A stretch of 64,000 nucleotides of DNA from contig LOEU01000001.1 of assembly GCA_001516025.1 (NCBI GenBank), positions 1-64,000 on the forward strand. Direction: 5' to 3'. Below the pieces are notes generated by a model that worked only from the letters and a program-made list of their open reading frames with translations, was not told where the DNA came from and did no database searches. This stretch comes from a bacterium BRH_c32. Lineage in GTDB: Bacteria; Bacteroidota; Ignavibacteria; Ignavibacteriales; Melioribacteraceae. Below are positions 1 to 29,286 of this stretch, one piece after another. The number at the start of each line of letters is the position of its first letter. Within the stretch, counting starts at the first letter, position 1. A program made the translations under genes and the position numbers.

Positions 1-411
1 CAGGTGAGTGCAGTTGTGAGCAGGTCGGTGCAGCCCGGTGCAAGCCGGTGCGGTTGTGTGCTAAAGGGTGCAAAGGAGTGCGATTGTGTGCGAGCGGGTG
101 CAGATGTGTGCCAATTAGTGCGGTGAAGGGCGAATGGGGGCAGACAAGTGCCGGAAAGTGCGATTGGGTATAATCCGGTGCAGATAAGTGCAGCCGAAGG
201 CAGGTGGAAGCAACAGTGAGCAAGCCGGTGCAAACCTGAGCAGGTGAGTGCAGTTGTGAGCAAGTCGGTGCAGCCCCGAGCAAGCCGGTGCAGATAAGTG
301 CAGCTAAGCGCAAGCCGGTGCGGTTACGTACCAATTAGTGCAGCCTGCAGTAAGCTGGTGCAACAATGAGCAAGTCGGTGCAACCCTGAGCAAGTGAGTG
401 CAAAAAAAAAG
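1..411 (-). repeat. Degenerate decamer array I (GCAC + 6 nt units)
   Basis: About 40 consecutive 10-bp units run from the left edge to the terminator of the next gene. On the plus strand each unit is CA-N5-GTG, so GTGC straddles each junction; on the minus strand it reads GCAC plus six variable bases. By hand count 25 of 40 units end in GTG, and no unit changes the 10-bp phase. Units 1-50 recur nearly unchanged at 241-290, a higher-order duplication 240 bp apart. The array continues beyond the window. It lies just 3' of a minus-strand gene, so read-through RNA would carry the GCAC strand. No coding frame is plausible. Function unknown. Confidence 0.9.
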
Positions 412-6064: not shown

Positions 6065-7516
6065 CTATATATTTGCAGCTTCGTATAGTGTTCTGTATGT
6101 TAATCGTGTAATTGCTTCGAATAATTTTGGGTTCAAAGTCTCCACTTTATCGCTGAGCTTATGAAGATGAGCATAGCTATTTGTCGTAACGAAATAAAGC
6201 GTTTTAATTCCATTCCGGTAAAAAGGTTCGGCATCCGCTCCTCCTCCTTTCCATGTATTAGAAGTCATTAACCGATCATTCTTATCATCAATCGATTTAG
6301 CTAAATCCCACATCTCTTTATTATCAATACCGCCGCCGACTTGTATGGAATCACCATAACCGACACAATCCATATTGAACATACTCTTAATATTTTCTTT
6401 CGGGATATTAAGATTATTTGCGAAAAAAGTTGAACCATTAAGACCAAGTTCCTCGCTGGCGAAGAGAACAATTATTATCGAACGCTTCGGTTTATTCTCA
6501 AGTTTACTTAAGGTGCGAGCTATTCCTAAAACTGCAGCAGAGCCGGAAGCATTATCATTAGCTCCGGGGAAATAAATTTCGCCATCCCCCTGCCCTCCTA
6601 CATGATCCAAATGAGCACCAAGAATAATATATTCATTCTTTAGTACCGGGTCCGAACCTTCAATTATCCCGGCTATATTCCATGTCTCAGCTTCTTTTTT
6701 GTATTCTGCTTTTACTTCTACTTCCACCTTATTTAATAGGGCTAAAGAATGTGGTCTTTTCTCCGTATCAATTGCGGATTGCATCATTTTTAATGTTGTC
6801 CCGCTTCCCTCGAATAGATTATCTGCTAAAGGAAGATCAATATGAATCTGGGGCATATCGAGCAATTGCTCACCCTTCCCGTTAATTAAACTTCCAATTG
6901 GAGCTTGTGGATTTTTATCATTAGGAAAAGATACCATTAATACGCCGATAGCACCATGATCTTTAGCTACTTGAGTTTTCTCTCTTGGGTTACCATTATC
7001 GAAAGAAACTTCGCCAATTTTCCACGAAGGATTGTATTTAAATACCAAGACAACTTTTCCCTTAACGTCAATTCCGGCATAATCGTCATATCCTTTATCG
7101 GGTTGCGAAATTCCATAACCTGCAAAAACAACATCTGCTTTGAATTTACCGCTACCCGTAAAACCTCTAAGAACAAAATCATCACCTAATTTATATTCTG
7201 TCCTACTACCTTCGCGAGTGATTATATTAAATACAGCCGGACGTTTTATTTCATTATATTCAACAAATAATTTTTGTTTATAACCATCTTTCATGTATGT
7301 CTTTAAATTCATTTTCTCAAATTCATCTGCAATAAAATTTGAAGCTGTTTCATAACCAACATGCCCGGGCATCCTTCCCTGCAATTCAGGACTCGATAAA
7401 TAAGAAACTGTTTTTAATAATTCGGATGATTTTATTGGACAACTTTGTGCGACAGTGAGCGAAGAGAAAAGATTTATTGTGATAAAAAATACAGATATAA
7501 AATATTTCTTAATCAT
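6065..7516 (-). CDS. Secreted M28 family zinc metallopeptidase
   Basis: The protein has a cleavable signal peptide (IKKYFISVFF to about VAQS) if started at the internal Met used here; a frame 16 codons longer exists but would bury the signal. An M28 aminopeptidase core follows, with a protease-associated (PA) domain inserted at about 120-225. The metal ligands of the family are visible: HLDH near 302-305, NDNASGS near 321-326 and EE near 355-356. It probably releases N-terminal amino acids from peptides outside the cytoplasm. Neither start has a strong Shine-Dalgarno sequence. No obvious partner gene is adjacent. Confidence 0.85.
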   Translation of the reverse strand: MIKKYFISVFFITINLFSSLTVAQSCPIKSSELLKTVSYLSSPELQGRMPGHVGYETASNFIADEFEKMNLKTYMKDGYKQKLFVEYNEIKRPAVFNIITREGSRTEYKLGDDFVLRGFTGSGKFKADVVFAGYGISQPDKGYDDYAGIDVKGKVVLVFKYNPSWKIGEVSFDNGNPREKTQVAKDHGAIGVLMVSFPNDKNPQAPIGSLINGKGEQLLDMPQIHIDLPLADNLFEGSGTTLKMMQSAIDTEKRPHSLALLNKVEVEVKAEYKKEAETWNIAGIIEGSDPVLKNEYIILGAHLDHVGGQGDGEIYFPGANDNASGSAAVLGIARTLSKLENKPKRSIIIVLFASEELGLNGSTFFANNLNIPKENIKSMFNMDCVGYGDSIQVGGGIDNKEMWDLAKSIDDKNDRLMTSNTWKGGGADAEPFYRNGIKTLYFVTTNSYAHLHKLSDKVETLNPKLFEAITRLTYRTLYEAANI

Positions 7517-23250: not shown

Positions 23251-23422
23251 CCGAGGCATCCCCGCCTCGGATATGCTAATAAGAAAATAATGATTATCAA
23301 GTGTAACACGGAATCATAGCATTCATACCTTATCGGACTCGCTAATAGAAAATAATGATTATCGAGTATAAAATGGACTCATAGCATTCAAACCTTAACG
23401 GACTCGCTAATAGGAAATATTG
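23251..23422 (+). repeat. Hairpin and 66-bp tandem repeat after the envelope operon
   Basis: A perfect 7-bp hairpin lies at 23251-23270. It is followed by a tandem repeat: copy 1 at 23275-23340 (66 bp), copy 2 at 23341-23405 (65 bp, a few mismatches) and a 17-bp partial third copy at 23406-23422. Each copy begins GCTAATA and ends CGGACTC. This block leads directly into decamer array II and has no plausible coding frame. Confidence 0.8.
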
Positions 23423-23430
23423 TAATGGGT

Positions 23431-24340
23431 GCACCGAATCGCACCCTGCTGCACTTATCCGCGCTAGACTTCTCTCATCTGCACCCTGTTGCACTCATTA
23501 GAATTAACTCGCACTTAGCTGCACTTATTTGCATTAACTTGCACTAAACATTGAAATTCTGCACTGCTCCGCACCCGATTGCATTATTTTGCACCAAGTG
23601 GCAATTCACTGCATTCATCTGCACCAAGTTGCATTCATTAGAATTTATCTGCACTAACTCGCAACTTTCTGCATTAAATTTCCCTCGATTGCACTATTCT
23701 GAAATCTTTAGCACAAAACGCACCCACTTGCACCCTTCTGCATTATACTGTCCTTGATTGCACCGCTTTGCAATATACTGCACTTAACTTGCACTCACTC
23801 GATTTTTATTGCACCAACTTGCACTTAATCGCACTCTATTGAACTTTTCCGAATTTTATTGCACTAACTGGCTCTTATCAGCACTTTTCCGCACTACTCG
23901 GCTTTCTTCGGCATTTTCTCGCTTCCGATAGTACCTACTTCCATTTTCTAGCACTCGATAGCACTTTTCCGCACTGCTTGGCATTCTCTTGCACTGAATA
24001 GTTTTTTCCGGCACATAGTTGCACTATCTTGTTTTATATGGCACTCGGTAGTGCCTAGTTTCACCGCTCTGCACTTGATTGCAATAAACCTCACTACCTT
24101 GCACTTGCTAGCATATTATTGCTCTTACCTGCACCAAACAAAACATTTCCGCACTTATCCGCACCACTCTGCACTTTATCGCACCCACTCGCACCTTTCC
24201 GCACTCGATTGCAATAAACCGCACTGCTTTGCACTTGCTAGCACATTATTGCCCTTACCTGCACCAGACTAAACAATTCCGCATTCACTCGCTCCCTTCT
24301 GTACCGATCATGAATCTTATGTACTTGATGACACTTCGCC
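23431..24340 (+). repeat. Degenerate decamer array II (about 91 GCAC units)
   Basis: Units of GCAC plus six variable bases repeat every 10 bp for about 910 bp. By hand count 46 of about 91 units keep GCAC, and most others keep GCA, GC or a one-base variant. Phase slips only once: a 9-bp unit at about 23711 is corrected by an 11-bp unit at about 23780. A block of about nine units (24071-24160) is repeated at 24201-24290, 130 bp later. Pyrimidine-rich ends such as TTCC, CTT and ATT recur. Stop codons occur in all frames. Function unknown. Confidence 0.93.
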
Positions 24341-24569: not shown

Positions 24570-25181
24570 CTACCCATTTATTGTTCCTTTTATTGATTTG
24601 CCGGAGATAAGCTTCCCTTCTAATACAATACTATTAATTGGAGACATATTATGCTTTGCTCTTTTCTTAAATTCTCTTGAGGTGATGTAAAAAGGAGCGA
24701 ATGTTACTCCATATTCATCATAAAGATAATCCCTCAATCTCGAAACTATTTCTTCAATTCTTTTTTTATCTGAATTGTAAACTATACAAATATCCAAATC
24801 ACTTTGTGCAGTCTCTTCATTTCGCGCTGTGCTGCCAAAAAGTAATATGCTTTCGGTGGTTTTTGAAAGTTCTTTTTTAATTTTATTAAATAGTGTTTTT
24901 GTAAACTCGATTTCAGTTTCAAATATTGGTTTAATAATTTGATTATATAGAAAATGCTTTCTATTGAGAATAAAATAGTGGGACTTCCCCACGAATTCTC
25001 TTTTAACAATTTTTAGAGCTTCGAGCTTAGATAAAGCGTTATGCGCTGATTGTGGAGTAACGTTCGCAAATCTTGCAATTTCTCTGCCCGAAACTCCCAC
25101 ATTTCTTTTAGCTAATTCTCTCAGTACTGAAATTGAAGAAGGTGCAGAAAACAATTCATTTATTACTTTGTTTATTATCAT
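24570..25181 (-). CDS. HTH-nucleotidyltransferase (MNT-like) fusion protein
   Basis: From the ATG chosen here the product has 203 residues; a TTG six codons upstream is possible but lies inside the operator. An N-terminal winged helix (about 10-70, with GVSGREIARFANVTPQSAHNAL) is joined to a polymerase-beta-type nucleotidyltransferase domain with GSTARNEETAQSDLDI (about 116-131), the GSx10-DxD core. Such proteins occur as minimal nucleotidyltransferases in MNT/HEPN modules or as self-regulating enzymes. No HEPN gene is adjacent. It sits alone between two decamer arrays. Confidence 0.75.
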   Translation of the reverse strand: MIINKVINELFSAPSSISVLRELAKRNVGVSGREIARFANVTPQSAHNALSKLEALKIVKREFVGKSHYFILNRKHFLYNQIIKPIFETEIEFTKTLFNKIKKELSKTTESILLFGSTARNEETAQSDLDICIVYNSDKKRIEEIVSRLRDYLYDEYGVTFAPFYITSREFKKRAKHNMSPINSIVLEGKLISGKSIKGTING

Positions 25182-25193
25182 TTGCTTTTTCTT

Positions 25194-25232
25194 TGTCAAT
25201 ATTTATTGACATGTGTCCATTATTATTGACAC
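25194..25232 (-). promoter_or_regulatory. Paired palindromic operator upstream of the HTH-nucleotidyltransferase
   Basis: Two inverted repeats lie head to tail just upstream of the ATG at 25181: TGTCAAT-N4-ATTGACA (25194-25211) and GTGTC-N10-GACAC (25213-25232). Both arms share TGTC/GACA half-sites. An AT-rich promoter-like stretch (25232-25255) lies upstream. The gene's own winged helix is the obvious candidate binder, suggesting autorepression. Confidence 0.6.
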
Positions 25233-25288
25233 AAATATAATATAATATATTTTAAATCAAACTCAATACTAATTTTGTTTAACTCTCA

Positions 25289-25568
25289 GCATTTTCTCGC
25301 ACTGGACTGAACTCTGCTGCACCACTTGGCATTATTTTGCACCAATCCGCACCACCCTGCACTATATTGCCCTCATTCGCACTCACCCGCACGTTATCGC
25401 ACTAAGATGCACCAATCCGTACCATCTTGCACTATATTGCCCTCATTCGCACCCACCCGCACGTTATCGCACTAAGATGCATCAACCCGCACCGCCCAGT
25501 ACGTTATCACACTAAGCTGCACCATTCCGCACCGCACCGCACTTACTCATACTCCATCACCCACCCGC
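25289..25568 (+). repeat. Degenerate decamer array III with 70-bp super-repeat
   Basis: About 28 units of GCAC plus six bases in strict 10-bp phase. Seven units (25339-25408) are repeated almost exactly at 25409-25478, and a third partial copy follows at 25479-25518 lacking three units. This array is the most regular of the three, which implies recent expansion by 70-bp steps. It lies between the operator of the nucleotidyltransferase gene and the ARPP-1 pseudogene. Confidence 0.92.
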
Positions 25569-25619: not shown

Positions 25620-26279
25620 AAATCTTTCGATTAATAATTATCCAAGGAGAAAAAACTGGTAACCAGAATTTTATCCGTGCAGTCGTATGACCACTTATCC
25701 GTAGTCCAATTCTCCACTTCCGATTATGTTGCTCCGGCGATGCTTCGAGTCCAAAAAAATTCTGACGTTTATAACAGTCTAAAAAATTCAGTCGGGTATT
25801 ATGCCGATCAGAGTATCGTGTGGCATAAAGTCCATGAAAGCATTCACAAATTCGGTATTCATTCCGAAACGGGAGACCTCGGCAGCATTTAAAAAAGAAA
25901 AGACGAAGAGATTAAATCTATCTCCTCTCACTTTAATTACGATGAAAAAGCCAACGGTCTGGCTCTCTTTAAGAATAATAAGCTCCTTAATATGGATATC
26001 TTTAATGGCTCGCAAGTATATCAGGATTATTTCCCTAAATTAATTAATGCTGCCGCAATCGATTTCCTTTATGATAAAAAAACCGATATAAAAATTGATG
26101 AGAGCGAACTAAAATATCGAACTCTCGAAACTCTCGATATGATCGATGAACTCGAGAAAAATAAATTCAAGGGTGCGGGCTTGGGCGAAGAAGAACTTTT
26201 TGAAAATAATCTCGTAACCGGTTTCAGACTAAATTACGAAGGTAAACTAATCCATCAAACAGTGATGAATAAAAATTAG
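25620..26279 (+). pseudogene. Decayed ARPP-1 (DUF6569) domain protein
   Basis: Two fragments of one protein family are visible. About 25620-25680, in one frame, encodes IIIQGEKTGNQNFI, like the N terminus of ARPP-1 proteins. The C-terminal half lies in another frame from 25677 to 26279 (YVAPAMLRVQ..., W...V, NGLALF, MDIF, RLNYEGKLIHQTV). That half is itself cut by an in-frame TAA at 25890-25892. The middle of the domain, including the usual G-x-KQNR region, is missing. An internal deletion plus a nonsense change makes function unlikely. The family assignment is from memory of its pattern. Confidence 0.6.
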
Positions 26280-27801: not shown

Positions 27802-29286
27802 CTATATCCTTAATTTCTTCATCTTGCTTTGGAGTGTAGTCGGTTTCATTTTAAGCAAAGCTGCCGCTCCATCACTTCCATATATTTTTCGGTCAGTCAA
27901 TTCCAATGCTTTTAGTATTATTTTTTTCGTTTCTTCTTCAAATGAATTTATTGAGTCCACTCCGGTATTTATTAGTTTTCGATTATCATTCTTTTCAAAT
28001 ACCAAATGAATTGGTTTTATAAATCCATCCTTGGCAAGTATTGCACCTCTTTCAAGTGTATTCTGAAGTTCTCTAACGTTTCCGCTCCAATTATTCCCTT
28101 CTAATACTTTTATCGCTTCATCAGATAAGAACAATCTTTTATTGAATTTATTTGAAAGCTTCGCTAAAAAATAATTTGATAATAAAAAAATATCTTCCTT
28201 TCTTTCTCTTAACGGTGGGAGAGTAATCGGGAATACATTCAAGCGATAAAATAAATCTTCTCTGAATTTTTTCTCTTTAACTTTTTCTTCTAGATTAATA
28301 TTTGTAGCCGCAATAATTCTCACCTCTGCATGATAAGTTTTTTCGCTTCCGAGCCTCTCGAATGTTCCCTCCTGAATTGCTCTTAATAGTTTTGGTTGAA
28401 TCTCATAAGGGAGGTCTCCCACTTCATCCAATAAAAGAGTGCCTCCATCGGCAAGTTCAAATCTCCCTCTTCTTGAAGTTGCCGCTCCCGTAAACGCTCC
28501 CTTCTCATGTCCAAAGAGTTCGCTTTCGGCTAAGTTATAATTAAGAGCAGAACAGTTTAATGCAATAAATGGTTTTTTTGATAAATTGGAAAGTGTATGA
28601 ATCGCTTTAGCCGCCTGTTCTTTTCCTGTGCCCGTTTCACCTAAAATGAGTACGTGTGAATTTGTAGGTGCAACTAATTTAATTTTATCTATCACCTGCA
28701 TCCATGGATAGGATTTGCCTACTAATCCATCAATTGTGTTTCCGATATCAGTGAGCAAAGAAGTGCGCTCATAAAGGAGAGTTTCTTTTTCATTTGCTAA
28801 ATTTTCGTTTTCGATAGTCTGCAGTAATGCTAAGGAAATCAGTTTAGAAAGTGTCTGAGCAATACTTACTCGCTGAGGAGAAAAGATATCGCATTGTCTA
28901 TGGTCTAAAGTCATTAATCCGAGAATTTTATTATTAATTTTTAATGGAGCCAACATGCATGAATGCCCCATGGGCAGATCAAGAACTTCTTCATAAGTAT
29001 CATGATGATTTTCATCTGCCGTTTCCTCCACTAATTTCACTTCACCGAGACGCAGCACTTCTTGGAGATCGGGACGATTTGCTAATCCAATTTGATATTT
29101 TTCAATTTCCCTATTCACGAGCGGACCCTTAGCATATCGCACTTTAAGCCGATTATCTGCTTCCCTGCTTAATATTACGGCAAGTTCATAAGGGATAATT
29201 TCGTTGATTGCCTCAAGAACAATATCCATTGTTCTTTTAGGTGTTAATCTAAAATTCGTTTCATCAAAAGAACGATTATTTTCCAT
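27802..29286 (-). CDS. GAF-domain sigma-54 dependent transcriptional activator
   Basis: From the ATG used here the protein has 494 residues. It carries a GAF sensor domain (about 15-160), an AAA+ domain (about 185-420) with Walker A GETGTGKE, an intact GAFTGA loop and the [10 protein letters not shown] Walker B, and a Fis-type HTH at the C terminus. The layout is that of FhlA/NorR-like one-component activators. A longer frame to 29400 would translate the divergent promoter region, so it was rejected. The GAF ligand is unknown. It is divergent from dps, with inverted repeats between them. Confidence 0.85.

Follow-up and report, generated by a model that had tools for sequence, protein, structure and literature searches.

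Whole-unit block duplication in decamer arrays of the BRH_c32 genome, and a possible protein-binding role for their unit

How does a short tandem repeat lengthen while its units stay in phase, and what keeps the unit itself alike from one copy to the next? Both questions are raised by array III, which lies in the first 64 kb of contig C1 (64,000 nucleotides, 36% G+C, hereafter the window) of the BRH_c32 draft genome (3.49 Mb).

Block duplication within the arrays

Array III is read in a 10-mer register that starts at 25288/25289, and contains the following elements.

25288..25547, + strand: array III, 26 in-register decamers YYGCACYNNN, with degenerate units on to about 25568
25339..25408, + strand: 70-bp block, copy 1, 7 units
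25409..25478, + strand: 70-bp block, copy 2
25479..25518, + strand: third, shortened copy, 4 units resembling units 1, 5, 6 and 7 of the block

The sequence-only reading had described array III as growing by 70-bp blocks. We compared the copies and found that copies 1 and 2 of the seven-unit block are identical at 66/70 positions, the 4 differences all being C/T. The third copy does lack three units, as had been noted, and its 40 bp agree with units 1, 5, 6 and 7 of block 2 at 32/40 positions (80%). What stands is therefore one 70-bp event and a 40-bp derivative; a 70-bp rule does not stand, the step sizes being 70 bp in array III, 130 bp in array II and 240/150 bp in array I. Directly adjoining array III, at 25638-26279, is an ARPP-1-family gene fragment with an in-frame stop, a pseudogene.

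Three further arrays were considered together with array III.

1..402, - strand: array I (window part), which goes on in contig C31 (last 205 bases of L033)
23430..24309, + strand: array II, 88 decamers, including one 9-base and one 11-base unit
24062..24174, + strand: array II duplicated block, copy 1 (partner 24192-24304, lag 130, no indel)
24192..24304, + strand: array II duplicated block, copy 2 (partner 24062-24174)
24570..25199, - strand: gene between arrays II and III, MarR-like HTH plus nucleotidyltransferase, best PADLOC match PDC-M05A (a candidate defence model)
Contig C36: array IV, about 12 units

The block copies that had been reported 130 bp apart in array II and 240 bp apart in array I were both recovered. 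In array II, 8 units match at 88% with an ungapped extension of about 113 bp, and in array I the lag of 240 holds across 20 units at 89%, with additional block matches at lags 390 and 150. Much of the partner block for lag 240 sits on contig C31. Because the C31 end (G000:C31, L033 15108-15313) shares 38 exact bases with window positions 1-38, array I is cut by the assembly; judged from these ends, contigs C31 and C1 probably join inside the array, which would then hold about 56 units in all.

To assess the blocks, the unit order of arrays I, II and III was shuffled 200 times and the best block score was compared. The observed score exceeded the shuffled maximum in array III (1.8 vs 0.8), array II (1.4 vs 0.7) and array I (3.9 vs 0.9), and nested block duplications were present in all three. 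When the duplicated blocks were aligned locally with gaps allowed (204, 113 and 72 bp), no indel appeared. The earlier statement that all spacings are multiples of 10 is correct for every block lag, but array II has a 9-base unit near 23709 and an 11-base unit near 23779; the two cancel, so that the phase is shifted by one base over about 70 bp. Immediately before array II, at 23275-23419, is a different tandem repeat with a 65-bp unit (2.2 copies, 88% matches). The block copies are in register and indel-free, which partly supports the proposed phase-preserving expansion in whole units, although growth is not distinguished from loss. Recombination between decamers, as had been suggested, leaves the positional constraint inside the unit unexplained. 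These results support multi-unit block duplication in whole units. Whole-unit steps are what any tandem array gives, and duplication is an ordinary mode of growth; the unusual part is a constrained GCAC core once per helix turn, together with its echo in a prophage.

A constrained decamer at four loci of one genome

Across the arrays the unit is YYGCACYNNN, with a constrained core and a near-random NNN. Mean information in three arrays was about 1.2-1.4 bits at positions 2-5 vs about 0.15-0.2 at positions 7-9. Position 10 was C or T in 140/140 ten-base units of arrays I and II, and A in 3/27 units of array III. Successive GCAC spacings of at most 16 bases were exactly 10 in 48/52 cases, and lag-10 identity placed the head-to-tail units above chance in all arrays. 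Coding repeats were ruled out, as the arrays contained no ORF of at least 100 aa, and an Rfam search of the arrays gave no match.

We then compared the unit with a neutral expectation. In a simple simulation (homogeneous array, uniform substitution plus block duplication, 150 runs), the four best positions never exceeded 0.80 bits once the spacer had decayed, against an observed 1.17 bits in array II. Judged by the information contrast and by comparison with the simulation, the arrays lack the even decay across the unit that a purely neutral array should show. Among 46 duplicated unit pairs there were 57 substitutions and 0 indels, and the change rate was modestly lower at core sites than at spacer sites (0.087 vs 0.174, p=0.026). 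The positional contrast and the indel-free duplicates thus suggest a constraint on core and pitch, whether from selection or from the way in which units are synthesised.

A whole-genome pattern search located the four arrays that share this unit, on C1, C31/C1 and C36, and no further long array of the decamer YYGCACYNNN; about 0.56 Mb of the same genome held no period-10 array of any other unit. Arrays II and IV are each flanked by the 3' ends of a pair of converging genes; for array IV the pair consists of an ArsC-family gene and one with a carbon-nitrogen-hydrolase domain. No match to the arrays was found in 78 other genomes of the family, nor any array at 29 relatives' loci beside the DUF3108 gene, where the glycosyltransferase-DUF3108 pair was kept in most cases. 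Conservation of the arrays in relatives was rejected on these grounds. Among 395 genomes of the phylum, only that of BRH_c32 carried such an array; in G247 the matches formed one GC-rich cluster.

An exact scan of public genomes returned at least 118 GCAC stretches, many of them simple pentamer or exact decamer repeats, and viral matches numbered 48 for the GCAC core vs 79 and 38 for control cores. The GCAC decamer was accordingly rejected as a widespread special motif. A query biased towards GCAC also picked out three Acidobacteria MAGs (SJ725, SJ750 and RIFCSPLOWO2_12_FULL_66_21), each of which has GCAC decamer arrays of other types at several loci.

SJ725/SJ750: L058, L075, L109, L129, L135, L147, L164 and others
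RIFCSPLOWO2_12_FULL_66_21: L098, L123, L165

These resemble the BRH_c32 arrays in their mostly 10-bp pitch, genome-specific unit and many loci, whereas the pitch in SJ725 and SJ750 is looser (9, 11, 13 and 15 also occur). Their units (CAGCACCYNT, YCGCACCYGY) are specific to each genome, and some arrays apparently lie within reading frames. Because control cores gave comparable viral counts, the GCAC common to such distant arrays is not evidence of kinship.

Decamer sites in a prophage

Short versions of the array occur in a prophage on contig C19, whose genes include an S24 repressor, an HTH_17 protein, a DnaC-like loader, a Mu-type portal, a terminase and a capsid protein.

L034 10979-11008 (G000:C19 about 28978-29007): 3-unit site, overlapping the terminase start in the divergent terL/late region
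L034 about 6951-6986 (G000:C19 about 24950-24985): 4-unit site, between the S24 repressor and HTH_17 genes

In the whole-genome search, the 3-unit site was the only exact 3-unit match outside the four arrays; its score of 28.1 was not equalled in 60 Mb of second-order Markov sequence. The 4-unit site scored 24.5, for which 0.06 occurrences per genome are expected under the same kind of model. Chance is an unlikely reason for two such sites in one prophage, one at each of its divergent promoter regions. In both, the sense strand reads GTGCA, and the site either overlaps a start codon or lies just upstream of one.

The HTH_17 protein (65 aa, L034 7001-7198) gave weak but significant matches to excisionase-type families and to PHROG 66 (excisionase and transcriptional regulator), and a PDB sequence search with it returned nothing significant. 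Its gene adjoins one of the prophage sites, and among the profiled neighbours of arrays I-IV no wHTH/excisionase gene was seen. The S24 repressor was considered as the binder and set aside, its promoter region having a separate palindrome, ATATAAG...CTTATAT, read by eye. Homologous prophages in related genomes lacked decamers in the terL promoter. The rep/HTH modules of G057 and G067, with an HTH 45-46% identical, also lacked them, and the decamers were not conserved with the HTH module. No relatives of the repressor or the HTH protein were found among viral contigs.

Proposed binding-site arrays and their rivals

We tentatively favor, at somewhat less than an even chance, the reading that a polymerising HTH protein binds these lineage-specific arrays of sites and that ordinary block duplication has enlarged them; the binding is what we infer. 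The arrays would be non-coding direct repeats of protein-binding type, offering one GCAC-core site per helical turn, and slippage or unequal recombination would enlarge them by multi-unit blocks. Core and pitch would be held because subunits of the protein line up head-to-tail on the DNA, one to each decamer, as those of phage excisionases (RDFs) or BldC do, and the first candidate is the prophage HTH_17 protein. The long host arrays might serve as a sponge for the phage protein or as a local nucleoprotein structure. This reading is the best supported because the decamer pitch fits RDF/BldC sites and HTH_17 matches excisionase families. RDFs bind cooperatively and head-to-tail to direct repeats spaced by one helix turn (PMC7498355; PMC11963761), as does the MerR-like BldC (PMC5859096), and the present units are likewise direct repeats with that spacing. 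The likeness to RDF (Xis/Cox/Apl/RdfS) and BldC arrays, drawn from sequence, extends to degenerate repeats and to small prophage versions that adjoin an excisionase-like HTH_17 gene. It breaks down in number and place: there are tens of sites here vs 2-7, and arrays II and IV are not at promoters. The Apl cluster has 5-7 sites, while the arrays here reach 88, far longer than the RDF clusters described in the literature consulted. Several observations weigh against the binding reading, namely that the HTH_17 gene is on another contig, away from the long arrays; that related prophages and rep/HTH modules of family genomes are without decamers at corresponding places; that two arrays sit between converging 3' ends; and that core and spacer differ only modestly in rate among recent duplicates.

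The main rival, close behind, is a functionless minisatellite of the STRR kind (short tandemly repeated repetitive sequences of cyanobacteria), grown by slippage and unequal recombination, in which GCAC has survived through chance, through preferential copying of intact units or because it was present in the founding units. We regard it as a real possibility, if a doubtful one. It stands close behind because the binder is hypothetical, the arrays are unique to the lineage among the genomes searched and two of them lie between converging genes. The nested block duplications, the intergenic position with its adjoining ARPP-1 pseudogene, the absence from the 78 family genomes and from the 29 relatives' loci downstream of DUF3108, and the other decamer arrays at many loci in unrelated bacteria (the Acidobacteria MAGs SJ725, SJ750 and 66_21) all suit this explanation. 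As in minisatellites, the head-to-tail non-coding units exceed chance and recur at several loci of the genome, and nested whole-unit block duplications and a contig break within an array are shared with bacterial minisatellites and VNTR loci. Uneven positional conservation and the near-absence of indels set the present arrays apart from such loci: the positional contrast does not arise from simple neutral decay, many indels would be expected, and the prophage promoter sites are left unexplained. TAACTGA heptamer arrays have been described in cyanobacteria, Beggiatoaceae and Bacteroidetes (PMC4679880). The arrays here are similar to these and to STRR in being short direct repeats in intergenic tandem arrays, at several loci per genome and with a patchy taxonomic spread, but differ in having a unit of 10 rather than 7, constraint at 5-7/10 positions and long multi-unit block duplications.

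Other explanations appear less probable. A copying process might itself write a fixed core and random spacers, for example by short templated or reverse-transcribed addition, so that synthesis rather than selection would shape the unit. The near-random spacer and nearly exact pitch of arrays I-III fit this idea, yet no reverse transcriptase or similar gene was among the profiled neighbours, and recent duplicates copy their spacers too, the core changing less; we consider it unlikely. Somewhat less likely still is a role at the RNA level, in which GTGCA, the complementary repeat, would bind a translational regulator in the 5' leaders of two prophage mRNAs. The start-codon position and sense-strand GTGCA of both prophage sites favor this, and a precedent has been suggested for TAACTGA repeats (PMC4679880). 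Against it, arrays II and IV are downstream of genes, array I takes the other orientation with respect to the genes beside it, RNA binding does not need a 10-base pitch and Rfam offered no match. Phased flexible TGCA steps giving intrinsically curved or wrappable DNA are very improbable: the exact 10-bp pitch is as expected, but a roll/twist model showed no excess of net bend over dinucleotide shuffles in arrays II and III and an excess of about 1.3 SD in array I, and intrinsic curvature was rejected for want of a clear excess.

A more specific form of the binding-array reading, which we think improbable, is that the host chromosome carries decoys: the roughly 180 sites in four arrays would soak up an excisionase-like phage protein whose true operators are the 3-4-unit sites on C19, and block duplication would tune the dose by lengthening the arrays. 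Should protein binding be what fixes core and pitch, a DNA-polymerising HTH protein would have here natural site arrays of unusual length, with a link to a prophage. The arrays would then provide a simple test of whether operator sponges are maintained on bacterial chromosomes.
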